From NCBI GenBank assembly GCA_036273515.1, contig DASUHM010000080.1, forward strand, positions 1-44,221: a stretch of DNA of 44,221 bases. Reading direction: 5' to 3'. Both the position numbers and the translations under genes were made by a program. Shown here in pieces: positions 26,100 to 32,356 of the stretch. Source of the stretch: Gaiellales bacterium. GTDB taxonomy: Bacteria; Actinomycetota; Thermoleophilia; Gaiellales; JAICJC01. The stretch's first letter is position 1. Every line of letters starts with the position of its first letter. The notes under the pieces are model-generated. The model had not been told where the DNA came from, searched no databases, and saw only the letters and a program-made list of their open reading frames with translations.

Positions 26100-26753
26100 C
26101 TAGCTCGAATAGGCGCGGCTGGCGTCGACCACCTCGCCCGCGCCCTGGAGCATGCCGATCGCGTCGGCGCTCGTCATCGGCTGCGAGAACATCGGGTAGT
26201 CCTGCGACGTCGCCGACTGCTGCTCCTCCGCGCTGGTGGCGGCGGTGCAGTCGGTGAGCGTGATGACGTCGTAGCCCTTCTCGTAGGCCGAGCGCATGGT
26301 CGACTCGACGCAGCAGTTGGTGAGGAAGCCGCCGAGCATGACCGTCTCGATCTCGCGGCTGCGCAGGATGAAGTCGAGGTTGGTGGTCGCGAAGGTGTCG
26401 AGACCGCGCTTGCCCTCGACGACGATGTCCGATTCAGCAGGCTTCATCTCGTCGCAGATCTCGGCGCCCCAGGTGCCCTTGACGAAGGCGGTCGAGTCGA
26501 TCACGCCCTTCAGGATGCCGTAGACCTTGTCGTGGTTCCCGAGCTCGCCGTACCCGGGCGCGAACGTGATCGGCGCGTGGATGACCGTGGCCCCGGCCCT
26601 GCGCGCCTCGTCGGCCATGCGGCGCGAGTTGGCGAGCATGCCGGAGTCGTCCATGACGCCCTTTACGGCATCGTGCAGGGCGCCCCCGTCGGTCGTGAAG
26701 TCGTTCTGGAACTCGATCAGGACGACAGCGGTCTTTGCGGGGTCGACATCCAT
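26100..26753 (-). CDS. isochorismatase-family cysteine hydrolase
   Basis: This 217-residue enzyme has the complete triad of the isochorismatase-like fold: D18 in LIEFQNDF, K115 in EGKRGLD and C148 in FLTNCCVEST, where the residue before the cis-peptide and the following V match the family. The fold covers nicotinamidases, ureidoacrylate and N-carbamoyl amidases and others. The substrate cannot be fixed from the sequence. The region after the triad is longer than in nicotinamidases, with SATSQDYPMFSQPM. ATG 26753 has GGGAGG at a fair distance. It stands alone between the DUF488 gene and the long hypothetical gene; 190 bases on its 3' side hold nothing I can identify. Confidence 0.9.
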   Translation of the reverse strand: MDVDPAKTAVVLIEFQNDFTTDGGALHDAVKGVMDDSGMLANSRRMADEARRAGATVIHAPITFAPGYGELGNHDKVYGILKGVIDSTAFVKGTWGAEICDEMKPAESDIVVEGKRGLDTFATTNLDFILRSREIETVMLGGFLTNCCVESTMRSAYEKGYDVITLTDCTAATSAEEQQSATSQDYPMFSQPMTSADAIGMLQGAGEVVDASRAYSS

Positions 26754-26922: not shown

Positions 26923-27477
26923 CTATGCGACGCGCTTGCGCGACCGCGATGCCGCCGCGTGCTCTCCGAACAGCGTCTCCTGCCCGTCGGTGATCATGGC
27001 CATGATCTCGGCGTGCGAGCGGATCGCGCCCTCCTCGTCGATGTGGGCGACGGGCACGCCGTTTGCGACCAGTTTCTCGGCGACGAGCTTCGTCCGGTGG
27101 CACTCCTGCGGCTTTCCTTCGCTGCACATGATCGCGATCCGGTGGCCGGCTTCCCATCCTGCCTCGAGGCGCTCGAGGCCGGCATGGAATGCCGTCCGAA
27201 GGCGAAGGCGGCCGTAGTCGACGTGTCCCGCCTCGTCTCGCGTCTCCGGGTCGTCGGGCATTCCCCCGAGCGAGTCGCCCATGAACAGATAGCGGATGCG
27301 ATGGGCTTCGAGTTCCGCCGCCAGCGCGCGCTTCGAAAACTCGGGTTTGAACTTGGAGTAGGGCGCCGACCGGACGTCGACGAGATACTGGACGCCCGCC
27401 GCCTGGAGCGCGTCGACGAACTCGGGCATCGAGCGGGCACCGTAGCCGATGGTCAGAATATGCCGACCCTGCTCCAT
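26923..27477 (-). CDS. DUF488 family protein
   Basis: This 184-residue protein has the DUF488 landmarks: LTIGYGARSMPEF at the start, the strand and loop VDVRSAPYSKFKPEFS, and the cysteine motif MCSEGKPQECHRTKL. The family is widespread and of unknown biochemical role; the CSE...CHR motif suggests metal or thiol chemistry. The C-terminal ITDGQETLFGEHAAASRSRKRVA ends in a basic tail. ATG 27477 is used, with only a weak ribosome site. The gene stands divergent to the truncated SNF2 helicase fragment, 44 bases away. Confidence 0.88.
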   Translation of the reverse strand: MEQGRHILTIGYGARSMPEFVDALQAAGVQYLVDVRSAPYSKFKPEFSKRALAAELEAHRIRYLFMGDSLGGMPDDPETRDEAGHVDYGRLRLRTAFHAGLERLEAGWEAGHRIAIMCSEGKPQECHRTKLVAEKLVANGVPVAHIDEEGAIRSHAEIMAMITDGQETLFGEHAAASRSRKRVA

Positions 27478-27521: not shown

Positions 27522-27878
27522 GTGGAGGATCACAGCCATGCGACGCTGGTGCTATCGCTGCGCGCGGGCGGACAGGGTCTGAACCTGCAAGACGCCTCAT
27601 ACGTCGCGCACGTCGACCGGTGGTGGAACCCGGCGGTCGAGCGACAGGCCGAGGACCGTGCCCACCGTCTCGGTCAGCGGTATCCCGTGACCGTCTATGA
27701 CTACGTCTGCGCGGACACGATCGAGGAGCGGATCGAGGAGATCCTCGAGCGCAAGCAGGGCCTCTTCGACCGCGTGATCGACGACGTTTCCGCCGACGTC
27801 CGGACGCTCCTGACGGCGGAGGAGCTGTTTGGAGTTGTGGGCCTATCGCCGCCGAGATCTCAGAAGGAGGACGCATGA
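27522..27878 (+). pseudogene. 3' remnant of a SNF2-family helicase
   Basis: Only the last 118 residues of a SNF2 helicase are present. LSLRAGGQGLNLQDASYV is motif V and the region before motif VI, and WNPAVERQAEDRAHRLGQ is motif VI with its arginine fingers. The ending LLTAEELFGVVGLSPP is typical for bacterial SNF2 proteins. A complete protein would be about 900 residues or more, and the Walker A and B lobes are missing; upstream lies the divergent DUF488 gene. GTG 27522 could start a short protein, but without the ATPase lobes it cannot be a helicase. It ends in an ATGA overlap with a short frame (27875-28000), suggesting a former operon. Confidence 0.8.
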
Positions 27879-28024: not shown

Positions 28025-28219
28025 GTGCACCGGACCCGCCAACAGCTCGGCCCTGTGGCCGCCCGCGTCGTCGCCGGCCTTCAGGTATGCAGCCGCTGCG
28101 GCAGGCGCCAGCCGGTCGACGACTTCCATCGCGATCGGACTCGGCCGACGGGTATCGATGTCTGGTGCAAGTGCTGCAAGCGGGAGTACGACGCCGATCG
28201 CTCCGCCGGTCTCGCATAG
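28025..28219 (+). CDS. small zinc-ribbon protein (endonuclease VII-like N-terminal motif)
   Basis: This 64-residue frame from GTG 28025 has two CxxC pairs, CSRC and CKCC, separated by PVDDFHRDRTRPTGIDVW. This arrangement (CxxC, FxxD, G, CKxC, RxY) is that of zinc ribbons in phage-type recombination endonuclease VII/HNH proteins. Only the ribbon is present; no nuclease core follows. It could be a small zinc protein in its own right or the front end of a lost nuclease. It lies inside the degraded stretch after the SNF2 remnant, and its composition is not far from a shadow frame, so the confidence is moderate. Confidence 0.45.
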   Translation: MHRTRQQLGPVAARVVAGLQVCSRCGRRQPVDDFHRDRTRPTGIDVWCKCCKREYDADRSAGLA

Positions 28220-28247
28220 GCCCGGCCGGCACCCTTGCAGCCGAGCC

Positions 28248-28682
28248 TCACACAGCTGCGACGTCCTCGCCGAGAACCTCCCCGCGGACATACTCCGTGA
28301 AGTCCTCGGCCGATGTGAAGAACCGGTAGCCGAACCGACCCGCCGCGGCCTCGACCTGCGACCCCTCGTTCAAGAGGACGGCCACCGGCTCGGAGCGGCC
28401 TGGCTGGAGGCCGTCGGGCCAGGCGACATCGAGCACCGCAGCCTGCTCGCCCGTGACGGGATCGACGACGGCGCCTGCCCGCCGTGCAGGAACGCATTCG
28501 CTCCACCTTCCACAGCTCAGGATCCATGGGGATCCAGTGTGAGGAGATGACGCCGGGCTGGCGCCCCTCCAACTCCGGGATATACGCCTCGGGAAGCCTG
28601 TCCGAGAAGGCGGCAGCGCGTCCCGCAGGTCCGGAACGTCGGCGAGCGGTTCTGACGACCATGTCGGGAGGGTCGCGCACAC
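28248..28682 (-). pseudogene. decayed gene with two apparent frameshifts, unknown function
   Basis: A protein-like sequence runs on the minus strand but changes frame twice. One frame reads SSEPLADVPDLRDALP, a second continues with SDRLPEAYIPELEGRQPG and PMDPELWKVERMR (from about 28615 to 28500), and the first frame resumes with GAVVDPVTGEQAAVLDVAWP, through VAVLLNEG, to FGYRFFTSAEDFTEYV and the stop at 28248. Two compensating frameshifts would explain this. I do not recognise the family. It might also be assembly error in a GC-rich run. Confidence 0.5.
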
Positions 28683-28833
28683 GACCGCGTGTTCGCGGGC
28701 GGGATCGAGGAGGTCGCCGCGGCCGTCGTCACCTCGATCACAGAGGGCGTCACCTCGCCCACGGCCTCTCAGCTCGCGGCCGCCATGCCGCCCCGGATCG
28801 TACGCGCCGCCACCGGCGGCGCGACGGTTCGCA
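28683..28833. other. short stretch without a confident gene, inside the degraded region
   Basis: A plus-strand frame from GTG 28689 reads VFAGGIEEVAAAVVTSITEG with G/C-ending codons, but it has no ribosome site, and its continuation runs into antisense of the Thr/Val-rich membrane gene. It may be a leftover piece of a gene. Nothing else was seen here. Confidence 0.3.
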
Positions 28834-29559
28834 CTACGTCGTCACAGTCACGGTCACCGTCGACGCCGGCAACGTGATGGTCACCGGCGGCCCGAACACC
28901 GTTGTCGTCGGCCCGGTCACGCTCTGGATGACCGTGGTGACCGTCGTCACCGTGTTGTTCACCGTTGTGGTGTTCGTCTTGGTATCCGTCGTCGACACGG
29001 TCACCGGCACCTTGATCGTGCGGTTCACGTCGACCTTGACCGGCACGGTCTTCCCGGACACGACCGTGTTCGCCGGGAGCTTGACGGTGCGCGCGGGGAT
29101 GTGCACGGTCTTGCCCTTCACCTTGACCGTGAGCGCCGGCGTGGAGATGTAGCGGCTGCCGTCGATCGTCACGACCTTGCCCTTCAGCTTGACGGTGCTC
29201 ACGAGCACCGCGGCATTCGCGTGACCGCCCACAGCACCCCCTAGCCAGAAGCCGCCCACGATCAGCGCGAGCGCTGCAACCGCACCCGGGATCGCGTGCC
29301 ACGGGCGCATCCGCTCGCGCGCGGCGATCAGCCAACCAGCCTCTCGCCACCGCTCCCGGGCGTCGTCGATCGCCGGCAGATGCGGCTTGCGCCCCTGCCA
29401 GCCGCGGCTGCTGTCGTGCATCCGGTCGCGCACGCCGTCCAGGTTCGGGCGCTTCCCGCGCAGGCCGCTCGCCCGCGTGCGGAAGCCTCCTGCCCGGTCG
29501 CGGAGCCCGTCCATGGCGTCCAGCAGTCGGCCCTTCAGGTCTTCGAATCGGCCTCCCAT
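28834..29559 (-). CDS. single-pass membrane protein with Thr/Val-rich outer domain
   Basis: This 241-residue protein has a basic, arginine-rich cytoplasmic N-terminus of about 85 residues, one membrane segment at about 89-110 (IPGAVAALALIVGGFWLGGAV), then a 130-residue outside part rich in threonine and valine. The outside part has near-repeats such as KVVTIDGSRY, ALTVKVKGKTV, RTVKLPANTVV and runs of TVTTVTTV, which favour an elongated beta structure. Nothing catalytic is seen. It has the look of a cell-surface or stalk protein, with the repeats perhaps targets for modification. The ribosome site is weak. It lies 81 bases after the ARPP-1 gene in the same direction, and the boundary region contains a single DnaA-box-like sequence. 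Confidence 0.72.
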   Translation of the reverse strand: MGGRFEDLKGRLLDAMDGLRDRAGGFRTRASGLRGKRPNLDGVRDRMHDSSRGWQGRKPHLPAIDDARERWREAGWLIAARERMRPWHAIPGAVAALALIVGGFWLGGAVGGHANAAVLVSTVKLKGKVVTIDGSRYISTPALTVKVKGKTVHIPARTVKLPANTVVSGKTVPVKVDVNRTIKVPVTVSTTDTKTNTTTVNNTVTTVTTVIQSVTGPTTTVFGPPVTITLPASTVTVTVTT

Positions 29560-29640: not shown

Positions 29641-30525
29641 TCATGCGTATGCGGAGAGCTGCAGCAGCTCGCCGTCCAGCTCGAGCCCGGTGGCCGCCAC
29701 GACCTTGGTCGCCGCCCGCAAGTCGGTGCCGAGTCCCGCCGACCCGCGCCGGGAGAGGGGCACGAGCGAGAGCCGGTGCAACATCCGGTTCACGGGCTCG
29801 ATCCCGGCGGCGGGCCGGTCGAGCTGATCGAGGGCGTCCATCAGGTACCCCTCGAGCAGCTTGCCGTGATGCTCGGCGTACGCGTCCGGCCGCGACAGGT
29901 AGTCGATGCAGGTGTGCCCGTCCGGCAGGACGAGGATGACCCCGCACTGGCCGGGCCGCGCGGGGAACGCCTCGCGCAGCTCGCGCAGCGCCGCCCGGTG
30001 GTGGGTGAAGAGGTCGGCATGCGCGGCGGTCGGCGAGGAGACGCCGCGGCGGTGCGCCTGCTCGCCGATCGCGCTCCACACCTCGCTCTGGGCAGCGCCG
30101 CGCACGAGCGGATCGGCCCCGAGCACCCGCGCCTTGCGCAGGCGCAGCTCCGGGCCGGCGGTGTGCGTCGCGGCGGCGAACGCCGCCGAGCGCCTCCGCC
30201 ACCGGCCGGCCTCGACGCAGCTCACCGGGATCGGCGTCAGCGACCGCGGCGCCACGAGCACCGTCAGGTTGAGGATCCGGTTCTGCTTGGCCCCGATCAG
30301 TTCCTCGCCGTCGTAGAGCAGCACCCGCTCGTCGAGCGGGTTCTCGACCACGAGCTCGGGTACCGTCCCGTCCGGCCCCGTCTCGGTGATCCGCACGCCG
30401 CGGCGCAGGCCGTCGGCGAGCGTCGCGTAGGCGGCCTCCGGGTCGCGGCGCGGGTAGAGCGGGACCACCGTGATCCCACGGTGGACGGTCGGCTCGTCGA
30501 GCTGGGCGGGCAGGGTGATCGGCAT
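29641..30525 (-). CDS. ARPP-1 family domain protein
   Basis: This 294-residue protein begins with ITVVPLYPRRDPEAAYATL, then GVRITETGPDGTVPELVVEN, DERVLLYDGEELIGAKQNRI and PVSCVEAGRWRRR, which I recognise as the ARPP-1 (DUF6569-type) domain. That domain was named for its association with ADP-ribosylglycohydrolase and rhodanese-phosphatase genes; its own activity is not established to my knowledge. No signal peptide is present. ATG 30525 has GAGGAGG about ten bases upstream, but this ribosome site lies in the right arm of a 7-base hairpin. The gene is the last of a probable four-gene minus-strand operon with an ImmA/IrrE peptidase, an XRE-like protein and a sigma factor. Confidence 0.8.
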   Translation of the reverse strand: MPITLPAQLDEPTVHRGITVVPLYPRRDPEAAYATLADGLRRGVRITETGPDGTVPELVVENPLDERVLLYDGEELIGAKQNRILNLTVLVAPRSLTPIPVSCVEAGRWRRRSAAFAAATHTAGPELRLRKARVLGADPLVRGAAQSEVWSAIGEQAHRRGVSSPTAAHADLFTHHRAALRELREAFPARPGQCGVILVLPDGHTCIDYLSRPDAYAEHHGKLLEGYLMDALDQLDRPAAGIEPVNRMLHRLSLVPLSRRGSAGLGTDLRAATKVVAATGLELDGELLQLSAYA

Positions 30526-30536
30526 GTGTGCGGGGC

Positions 30537-30560
30537 CTCCTCGTGGCGTTTGCCGAGGAG
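30537..30560 (-). promoter_or_regulatory. hairpin covering the ARPP-1 ribosome binding site
   Basis: On the minus strand CTCCTCG (30560-30554) pairs with CGAGGAG (30543-30537) across a 10-base loop. The second arm contains the Shine-Dalgarno GAGGAG for ATG 30525. In the message this would mask the ribosome site, so ARPP-1 may be translated only when the hairpin is opened, for instance by ribosomes leaving the upstream gene or by a regulator. The structure is seen; its effect is inference. Confidence 0.45.
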
Positions 30561-30584
30561 ACGTCCGCCGGGCCGGCGCGATCC

Positions 30585-31145
30585 TTACATGCCTCTCCAG
30601 CGGTCGACCTCCGCCTGCAGGTCGACCGGCAGGGCCTGCAGATAGCCGAGCGTGACCAGGCGGAAGCCCATCGCCACGTCGGAGACGCCGAAGCGCCCGG
30701 CCAGCGCGATGGGGTCGGGGCCGTCGCGGTCGGCCGCCTCGCGCACCATTCCCTCGGGCATCAGCAGCTCGGCGGCGAAGCGGTTGGCCTCGCGCTCGCG
30801 GCCCCGTTCGCTGGCCTGGGCCGTCTCGACGTCGGCCGGACGGCACAGCACCGCCGCGCCGTCGGAATGAAGCAGGTGGTGGCCGATCTCGTGCGCGACG
30901 GTGAAGCGGCGCCGCGGCCCCGGCTCGTCGCGGCGCACCCAGATCTCCCACCGCGCCGGCAGCAGCACACCAGACAGCTGGGCCGCCGTCGTCGCGCCGG
31001 CGATCGGGCCGAGGTCGTCCGCCGCCCGCACCCGCAGACAGCACAGGCTGGCCGCCAGCTCCTCCACGTCGACCGGCGGGACGGAGGCCGCGTACACCCC
31101 GCAGAAGCGGTCGAGCGCCTCGCGGGCGGCGACGAGCTCATCCAC
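30585..31145 (-). CDS. ImmA/IrrE family metallopeptidase
   Basis: This 186-residue protein has the zinc motif HEIGHH at 85-90 and the third ligand in EREANRFAAELLMP (E119), which is the ImmA/IrrE (M78) peptidase signature. Family members cut repressors, releasing stress or mobile-element genes. GTG 31145 overlaps the stop of the upstream XRE-like gene by eight bases, so the two are coupled. No helix-turn-helix is present in this protein, but its upstream neighbour has one; ImmA peptidases often act on just such a neighbour. Three cysteines occur near residues 15-36. The longer frame to 31259 was rejected since it is arginine-rich shadow. Confidence 0.9.
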   Translation of the reverse strand: MDELVAAREALDRFCGVYAASVPPVDVEELAASLCCLRVRAADDLGPIAGATTAAQLSGVLLPARWEIWVRRDEPGPRRRFTVAHEIGHHLLHSDGAAVLCRPADVETAQASERGREREANRFAAELLMPEGMVREAADRDGPDPIALAGRFGVSDVAMGFRLVTLGYLQALPVDLQAEVDRWRGM

Positions 31146-31725
31146 CGGTGAAGAGGTCGTCGATCTCGGCGACGCGCGGGGCCGTGCTCGCCTCCTCCAC
31201 CACCGGAGGCGGTGCGCCGGCCGGCGCCGCGCGCATGAACGCCGACGCGGCGGTCGCACCCGCGGGCGGCGGCACGATCCCCCGCCCCAGCTCGAGCAGC
31301 GCCTCGGGCACCTCCAGGATCTTCGCCAGCGCCGCCACCACCGGCGGGCGCACCCGCGTCGGCGCCAGCTGCCCAGTCTCCAGCTCGTGCACGTACTCCT
31401 CGACCTGCGCGTTCGCGTCGGGATGACCCAGCGCTGCGGCCAGCCGTGTGACCAAGGTCCCCCGCGTCGTTCCCCGGCGGGCGCGAAGCGCGGGGAGCAG
31501 CTCCGGCCACGCCCGGGGCGGCTCGCTGAGCGGGTCGGCGGCCCTCGCGTCCACCTCGGCCTCGGTGATGTCCGTGCGCGGGTTGGCGGCCAGATAGGCG
31601 GCGAGCATGGCCCCCAGCGGCTCGCGGTCTACCTCCCCGGCGGCGGCAATCGCGGCCGCCGGGTCGGGTTGCTCGCCCCGCTCCCACGCGGCGACGAAGT
31701 CGTTGAACACGGCCTCGGCCCTCAC
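31138..31725 (-). CDS. XRE-like helix-turn-helix protein (ImmA-associated)
   Basis: This 195-residue protein has an N-terminal helical part (VFNDFVAAWERG, then DREPLGAMLAAYLA) and, at about 80-145, a degenerate XRE-type helix-turn-helix: LPALRARRGTTRGTLVTRLA, AALGHP, then EEYVHELETGQLAPTRVRP and VVAALAKILEVPEALL. The ELE.G.L pattern and helix spacing match XRE proteins. The last 50 residues are Ala/Pro-rich and end in EIDDLFTGG. GTG 31725 overlaps the sigma-factor stop as GTGA, and its own stop overlaps the ImmA/IrrE start. By analogy with ImmR/ImmA pairs, it could be the repressor or anti-sigma-like partner that the peptidase cleaves. Confidence 0.72.
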   Translation of the reverse strand: MRAEAVFNDFVAAWERGEQPDPAAAIAAAGEVDREPLGAMLAAYLAANPRTDITEAEVDARAADPLSEPPRAWPELLPALRARRGTTRGTLVTRLAAALGHPDANAQVEEYVHELETGQLAPTRVRPPVVAALAKILEVPEALLELGRGIVPPPAGATAASAFMRAAPAGAPPPVVEEASTAPRVAEIDDLFTGG

Positions 31726-32297
31726 CGCTCGAGCTCCCTGCGCATCCGGTCCATCGCACGGAAGAAGATCACATCGACGTTGCCGCGGCTGATCTTCAGC
31801 CGCTCGGCCATCTCGTCGCCTTTCAGCCCACCCCACAGCCGACCCCAGACGATCTCGCGCTGCCGCTCGTCGAGCACCGACAGCAGCTGCTCGACGACGA
31901 TCGCGTCGTAGCCGTCCTCCTTGGCGCCCACCCCGTCGAGCGCGTCAAGCGACGCGCCCGCCGGCTTCCGGGTCTGGAAGTGGGTGGCGATGACGCGCTG
32001 GGCCATGACGACGAGCAGGCCGGCTGGCGTCTCGATCGGCTTCGACCGCAGGTAGACGACGCGCACGAACCGCTCGTAGACCGTCGACTCGAGGTCGTCC
32101 ACCATGTCAATTGGCGTCTTGGAAGCGACAATTGCCCGGACGAGCCCCCGATTGCGCTCATACACCAGCGCCACACACCGCTTGGCCGTCTCGACGCCCG
32201 CCGCGCCTTCCGTATGGGACTCGCGCGCGTGCGCGACCAGCTCCGCGTCGGACATGCGCTGGAGCGCGTCGAAGGAGGTCGGCCGTTCGTTCCCCAC
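31722..32297 (-). CDS. sigma-70 family (ECF-like) RNA polymerase sigma factor
   Basis: This 191-residue protein has a sigma-2 region (ALVYERNRGLVRAIVAS, DMVDDLESTVYERFVRVVY) and a sigma-4 helix-turn-helix (LDERQREIVWGRLWGGLKGDEMAERLKISRGNVDVIFFRAMDRMRREL). No sigma-3 domain is found, as in ECF factors. GTG 32297 is the first possible start; ATG 32255 is an alternative. No ribosome site is seen. It opens the operon with the XRE-like, ImmA/IrrE and ARPP-1 genes, the first two by 4- and 8-base overlaps. It may be freed when the downstream peptidase acts. Two CAATTG motifs 21 bases apart (32108, 32129) lie within it. Confidence 0.88.
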   Translation of the reverse strand: MGNERPTSFDALQRMSDAELVAHARESHTEGAAGVETAKRCVALVYERNRGLVRAIVASKTPIDMVDDLESTVYERFVRVVYLRSKPIETPAGLLVVMAQRVIATHFQTRKPAGASLDALDGVGAKEDGYDAIVVEQLLSVLDERQREIVWGRLWGGLKGDEMAERLKISRGNVDVIFFRAMDRMRRELER

Positions 32298-32356
32298 CGG
32301 CGCGAAAGCTTAAGCCACATACGCAAAGCGTCGCGCGCCGGCCCGCGCGGCTTACA

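Follow-up and report, generated by a model that had tools for sequence, protein, structure and literature searches.

The 44,221-nucleotide stretch of DNA analyzed here, referred to as the window, comprises positions 1 to 44,221 of contig DASUHM010000080.1 (assembly GCA_036273515.1) of a Gaiellales bacterium, a member of the class Thermoleophilia (Actinomycetota). It carries, all on the minus strand, the genes for a sigma factor of the extracytoplasmic function (ECF) type, for a protein with an XRE-type helix-turn-helix (HTH) domain (hereafter the XRE-like protein), for a metallopeptidase of the ImmA/IrrE (M78) family and for an ARPP-1 protein (Table 1). By cleaving repressors, ImmA/IrrE peptidases release genes of mobile elements, of the radiation response and of immunity. 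The sigma factor gene overlaps with the gene for the XRE-like protein by 4 bp and the latter with the peptidase gene by 8 bp, and a gap of 59 bp separates the peptidase gene from ARPP-1; these coordinates bear out the arrangement given in a preliminary description of the locus, which had considered the four genes a single operon and a self-contained switch triggered by damage or phage. We suggest reading the locus as an operon of three genes followed by a target gene, ARPP-1, with a promoter of its own, rather than as a four-gene operon.

Table 1. Genes and predicted regulatory elements of the sigma factor/ARPP-1 locus (positions within the window)
Feature	Position	Strand	Details
Sigma factor gene, ECF type, two-domain	31722-32297	minus	GTG start, 191 amino acids; Pfam Sigma70_r4_2 9.7e-9
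XRE-like partner gene	31138-31725	minus	GTG start, 195 amino acids; Pfam HTH_31 3.8e-4, below cut-off
ImmA/IrrE (M78) metallopeptidase gene	30585-31145	minus	GTG start, 186 amino acids; Peptidase_M78 PF06114 1.3e-19
ARPP-1 gene	29641-30525	minus	ATG start, 294 amino acids; PF20208 2.6e-76 over 8-293
Predicted sigma-type promoter of the sigma operon, GTAAG-N18-GAC	32330-32355	minus	one of two matches in the window
Predicted sigma-type promoter of ARPP-1, GTAAG-N18-GAC	30563-30588	minus	-35 part overlaps the peptidase stop codon
Inverted repeat CTCCTCG-N10-CGAGGAG	30537-30560	minus	between the ARPP-1 -10 element and the start codon, covers the likely ribosome-binding site
Gene for a 241-amino-acid Thr/Val-rich protein, possible operon tail	28834-29559	minus	81 bp downstream of ARPP-1

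A profile search for the XRE-like family in 399 genomes of the class Thermoleophilia (128 genera) gave matches, mostly full-length, in 102 genomes and 44 genera; in a phylum-wide sample of 396 genomes, 15 had a match, one of them outside the class. For 55 loci the flanking sequences were long enough to count neighbouring genes. A sigma factor gene is located directly upstream of the XRE-like gene at 49 of these loci, usually with an overlap of 8, 4 or 1 bases, and a gene for an M78 peptidase is found within 1.5 kb at 51 (33 co-directional, 18 convergent). The peptidase fraction is somewhat biased because some loci were fetched by peptidase similarity, and loci found later through the XRE-like gene only give the same picture; a scan of genome contigs with a peptidase alignment returned mostly unrelated M78 peptidases. 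The gene-neighbourhood check proposed in the preliminary description thus shows a set of three genes that recurs in dozens of genomes with similar start/stop overlaps (-8, -4, -1), which indicates that their association is not due to chance. The sigma factor, the XRE-like protein and the M78 peptidase form a real, class-wide regulatory module of Thermoleophilia. ARPP-1 is a looser neighbour: at 20 of the 66 places where it occurs it lies within 5 kb of an XRE-like gene; these cases come from four families and show all orientations. Both genes are present together in 40 genomes versus 16 expected (Fisher 1.6e-12, not corrected for relatedness).

Pairs of M78 peptidases and XRE proteins are treated as putative toxin-antitoxin systems, for example in Brucella (PMC10538038). 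That the genes described here represent such a type II pair with a bystander sigma factor, or belong to a mobile element or prophage, is extremely unlikely, and we have rejected both possibilities: the sigma factor gene is nearly always located beside the XRE-like gene and overlaps with it, the chromosomal place of the module is stable in genus g6, the XRE-like family had no match in 72,556 plasmid records, and ARPP-1 had none in 50,697 phage records.

The sigma factor was modelled with AlphaFold2 as a two-domain ECF sigma factor (sigma2 and sigma4; predicted local distance difference test (pLDDT) 81.5), and it is recognized by the Pfam r4_2 and Sigma70_ECF models. Its best structural match in Foldseek is the E. 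coli sigmaE-RseA complex (1or7, E 6e-5), followed by AlgU and BldN, with SigW also among the matches. The model of the XRE-like protein (pLDDT 75; the alignments behind the two models are shallow, with 5 and 4 sequences) consists of a three-helix N-terminal domain (residues 1-50), an XRE HTH domain (73-147), a disordered linker (151-182) and a C-terminal helix. In an alignment of 20 family members, the linker residue R165 and the end-helix residues D189, L191 and F192 are invariant, as are residues of the HTH domain. The latter resembles the N-terminal domain of CapH (7t5u, TM score by target 0.71), DdrO (6jq1) and C-proteins, with no Foldseek match having an E value below 0.001. By sequence, the XRE-like family belongs to no named Pfam or NCBIfam family (a weak HTH_31 hit in Pfam, no match in NCBIfam), and neither database recognizes an anti-sigma domain in it; Foldseek finds XRE HTH folds. 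The peptidase has an intact HEIGHH motif, with H85, E86, H89 and the downstream E117 being invariant; it matches the capP model of PADLOC (1.6e-26), and its closest sequence in the Protein Data Bank is CapP (7t5t, 5.9e-9), with IrrE next. For ARPP-1, a sequence search yielded no relative of known structure.

The link between the module and ARPP-1 lies in their upstream regions. Comparison of the sequences preceding sigma factor and ARPP-1 genes revealed a bipartite element consisting of GTAAG or GTCAG, 18 or 19 nucleotides of spacer, and GAC, often with T as the next base. Within 250 bases upstream of the respective genes this motif is present at 47 of 75 sigma factor genes and 32 of 43 ARPP-1 genes, compared with 5/96 peptidase genes, 2/88 XRE-like genes and 65/954 other genes; on the opposite strand it is found at 6/75 sigma factor genes, 3/43 ARPP-1 genes and 65/954 others. 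The enrichment is sharply limited to spacings of 18 and 19. As the pattern was defined on the sequences in which it was counted, independent controls are needed. ARPP-1 genes of families f6 and f7, in which no XRE-like match was found, do not carry the motif (0/8), whereas 40 of 49 do in families bearing the module; these 40 include ARPP-1 genes on contigs other than that of the module and some in draft genomes in which the XRE-like gene was not found. In addition, the -35 variant differs between lineages and is identical at sigma factor and ARPP-1 promoters within each of them: in families f1, f2, f3 and f5 only GTAAG is seen (20 sigma factor and 24 ARPP-1 genes, no GTCAG), and in f8, f10 and f11 only GTCAG (22 and 7 genes, no GTAAG). 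The most common residues at positions 172, 179 and 181 of the sigma factor, in the region 4.2 helix, also differ between these two groups. At the remaining genes, on which the definition of the motif did not draw, 24 of 66 occurrences lie 33-39 nt ahead of the start codon, compared with 1 of 67 on the reverse strand and none or one for each of eight control motifs, and this spacing agrees with that expected for leaderless transcripts. In the complete genome G009 a stricter form of the motif has 8 matches versus 1 for the backward control, and the sigma factor, the peptidase and both ARPP-1 genes are among them. Control of ARPP-1 by the sigma factor is well supported by these sequence patterns, and the sigma operon is predicted to be autoregulated via the bipartite promoter, the spacing of which is ECF-like.

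In the window, GTAAG-N18-GAC has exactly two matches, where 0.20 are expected; one precedes the sigma factor gene and the other ARPP-1. The predicted ARPP-1 promoter falls into the 59-bp gap, which is at odds with a four-gene operon, while the trio upstream of it is retained as a unit. The proposed coupling of ARPP-1 to the switch holds in so far as ARPP-1 has a lineage-specific promoter motif in common with the sigma factor, both in cis and in trans, and less so with respect to gene order. The switch is not self-contained, since ARPP-1 often resides elsewhere in the genome with a sigma-type promoter of its own and further genes bear the motif. An inverted repeat between the -10 element and the start codon of ARPP-1 in the window is longer than those found in 60 of 60 shuffled sequences. 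Its equivalents at other ARPP-1 genes are divergent in sequence yet paired (mean stem 5.4 versus 3.9 in shuffles; 10 of 27 at p<=0.05, uncorrected), and the repeat could be either an operator or a translational hairpin. Promoters of the PafBC type include a TAnnnT -10 element. Such a promoter (RecA-independent), which we had considered for the TGTCAG half, was ruled out because no TAnnnT follows it.

The genes that carry the motif or lie close to the module give more weight to the suggestion of a response to damage or phage, with AddAB-like, Mre11-Rad50-like, PDDEXK nuclease-helicase and Zac defence genes being found as neighbours or motif carriers. The motif occurs at leaderless spacing upstream of genes for PDDEXK/RNase H/superfamily 1 helicases of about 1100 amino acids in families f3 and f10, which are MkoA-like according to PADLOC, and further genes with this spacing encode a PDDEXK AddB-like protein, an SbcD-like nuclease, VWA proteins and ZacA. 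AddB-AddA-like genes follow ARPP-1 in the same direction in G002, the sister of the window genome, and in G372. In the latter genome the motif lies 37 nt before zacA. In G009 an HmaA-like gene is located after a second copy of the peptidase gene, and a Mre11-Rad50-like pair directly follows the peptidase gene at loci L140, L142 and L149 and, less clearly, at L037 and L038. The trio might instead be a general stress or metabolic regulator that lies close to repair and defence genes because of genome islands and not because of its function; gltB-like housekeeping genes adjoin the module in family f2, and VWA, HD_4 and AAA proteins as well as small proteins without an assigned family are encoded by motif-bearing genes. 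We regard this as improbable given that in two families the nuclease-helicase genes have the motif at leaderless spacing, each time with the matching -35 variant, and that zacA has it at -37. The module and its conservation, the promoter motif, and the presence of this motif at sigma factor, ARPP-1 and repair or defence genes are supported by the comparisons made here, and the interpretation given in the preliminary description is supported in part.

Some of these loci show further peculiarities. At L140, L142 and L149 the genes form a six-gene operon encoding the sigma factor, a protein of about 150 amino acids without a Pfam match, the XRE-like protein, the M78 peptidase, and the Mre11-like and Rad50-like proteins; this arrangement occurs in families f8 and f10 and in G473, a genome of another class. 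The promoter motif was looked for upstream of the sigma factor gene at these SbcCD-type (Mre11-Rad50-like) loci and not found, and this subtype may use another promoter. In G372 a ZacA-ZacB-ZacC anti-phage cassette is located directly after the sigma factor and XRE-like genes (L097:6972-11592), with zacC running off the contig. The HD_4 proteins encoded by motif-bearing genes in family f10 (L113:7849-8463, L131:7928-8533) resemble small alarmone hydrolases. In G001 a gene for a WYL-domain regulator (L032:708-1646) lies 55 bp upstream of the sigma factor gene; an association of ARPP with WYL regulators is reported in a paper on ARPP conflict neighbourhoods (Viruses 2022, PMC9503650).

Among characterized systems, the module is closest to two pairs of a regulator and a peptidase. 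With CapH/CapP it shares an XRE-type HTH protein and an M78 peptidase adjoining defence genes at some loci, CapP being, by sequence, the nearest relative of the peptidase among solved structures and the N-terminal domain of CapH being among the structural matches of the HTH. In contrast to CapH/CapP, a sigma factor is added, with its gene overlapping the XRE-like gene, and the targets have sigma-type promoters; moreover, the HTH of CapH-type proteins is N-terminal, whereas here it is central, preceded by an extra N-terminal domain and followed by a disordered tail that ends in a conserved helix. In PADLOC, the XRE-like protein had no match to a CapH model, and no genes of cyclic oligonucleotide-based antiphage signalling systems (CBASS) were recognized in the annotated loci. 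IrrE (PprI)/DdrO of Deinococcus is similar in that a peptidase and an XRE regulator control dispersed DNA-repair targets and regulate themselves. DdrO acts as a repressor at radiation/desiccation response motif (RDRM) sites (PMC5552922), whereas here an ECF-type promoter marks the regulon, the peptidase is reduced to its catalytic domain and the targets are different ones. ECF/anti-sigma systems such as ECF41, with its promoter TGTCACA-n16-CGTC (PMC3426412), have in common with the module a two-domain sigma factor, an autoregulated bipartite promoter (here TGTCAG or YGTAAG, then GAC), an overlapping partner gene and few targets near the sigma factor gene; they differ in that the partner here is an HTH protein without a recognized anti-sigma domain and that an M78 peptidase is the third component. 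The ARPP proteins of conflict neighbourhoods belong to the same family (PF20208) and are reported with ADP-ribosylglycohydrolase (ARG), phosphatase, restriction endonuclease/helicase, WYL and HIRAN genes; linkage to a sigma factor, an XRE protein and a peptidase, or control by a promoter of this kind, is not among the contexts described in the accessible part of that work (PMC9503650). No ARG gene was recognized among the annotated neighbours of ARPP-1 in the window. The module is related to CapH/CapP and IrrE/DdrO, except that an ECF sigma factor forms its basis; of its predicted targets, ARPP-1 is the most conserved. The sigma factor coupled with its own regulon is the new element relative to the CapH/CapP and DdrO/PprI pairs; in the open literature searched, coverage of which is incomplete, we found no ECF system of this composition and no precedent for a sigma factor combined with IrrE.

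The explanation we favour, and consider somewhat probable, is a cytosolic, protease-gated ECF sigma switch, that is, a damage switch of the CapP/IrrE type with a sigma factor as its basis. In the resting state, the XRE-like protein would keep the sigma factor, presumably by binding it, or the sigma-dependent promoters silent. Upon damage the M78 peptidase would be activated to cut the XRE-like protein, probably via single-stranded DNA, which stimulates cleavage of the HTH partner in CapH/CapP and DdrO/PprI (PMC13373217, PMC10904395). The cut might be placed in the disordered linker, perhaps near the invariant R165, and would part the HTH section from the conserved C-terminal helix. Once released, the sigma factor would transcribe its own operon and targets with GTAAG-N18/19-GAC promoters; besides the sigma operon, ARPP-1 would be the most conserved of these, and DNA-end-processing nuclease-helicases and anti-phage modules would be lineage-specific targets. 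ARPP proteins have been suggested to act on ribose moieties (PMC9503650), and ARPP-1 may serve as an effector.

Several observations weigh against this explanation. The XRE-like protein matches no anti-sigma family and its HTH looks intact, so that it could instead repress by binding DNA or serve as a co-activator. Sensing of single-stranded DNA is not given by homology, as the peptidase of 186 amino acids is matched by the M78 domain only and has neither the HTH nor the GAF-like domain of IrrE. A minority of loci have no peptidase gene nearby, and in family f2 and much of f10 this gene is convergent. Finally, in the window genome (a draft of 4.07 Mb) an extended form of the motif has 4 matches, the sigma-operon promoter being one of them, versus 4 for the backward control, so that a wider regulon is not separable from background.

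If the XRE-like protein were a DNA-binding repressor of the sigma operon, like CapH or DdrO, its cleavage by the peptidase would allow the sigma factor to be made, which in turn would drive ARPP-1. The HTH fold similar to the CapH N-terminal domain and DdrO, the invariant HTH residues and the same type of peptidase fit such an arrangement. However, apart from the bipartite motif no consistent operator was seen by eye in the upstream regions of the sigma factor genes, the sigma factor gene has a promoter of the sigma factor's own type, which makes sigma activity a likely control point, and the near-universal overlap of the two genes suggests a stoichiometric partnership of their products. We therefore consider repression at the DNA level unlikely, while still the most serious of the alternatives. 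Very improbable, in our opinion, is that the sigma factor and the XRE-like protein form an activator complex and that the peptidase ends the response by removing the latter; the two are the tightest pair and the peptidase gene is sometimes missing or convergent, but the characterized M78/XRE pairs destroy a negative regulator (PMC10904395, PMC13373217).

The surroundings of the module in the window include a gene for a transporter of the resistance-nodulation-division (RND) type (ACR_tran) as the upstream neighbour, which ends 59 bp before the sigma factor gene. No defence operon was recognized within the window itself. A homologue (214 amino acids) of the Thr/Val-rich protein encoded downstream of ARPP-1 is found at the equivalent place in the sister genome G002 (L031), with the AddB-AddA-like pair behind it. 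Positions 28081-28800 seem to contain the decayed remnant of a gene for an S1-domain protein, identified by eye from a common 'TLPTWSSEPL' stretch; this gene (638-698 amino acids) is intact at the matching locus of G001 and G002. A short open reading frame at 27522-27878 encodes only the Helicase_C end of an SNF2-like protein and is probably a helicase gene that has been truncated. Two genes located 2-4 kb downstream of ARPP-1, on its strand, encode a DUF488 protein (26923-27477, 2.2 kb away) and a hydrolase of the isochorismatase family (26100-26753); they may have a bearing on the phosphatase partners that have been described for ARPP.

Taken further, an HTH protein of a new family would act as a soluble anti-sigma factor that an ImmA/IrrE peptidase destroys, and the module would govern a class-wide damage and defence response with ARPP-1 as core effector beside DNA-end-processing and anti-phage genes, a proposal for and against which we see nearly equal grounds. 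A peptidase of this type appears here to be wired to a sigma factor, so that one cut would turn on a dispersed regulon. The promoter motif makes this regulon readable from sequence and places ARPP-1, a member of a family suspected to act in ADP-ribose conflict biology, in a firm regulatory context.

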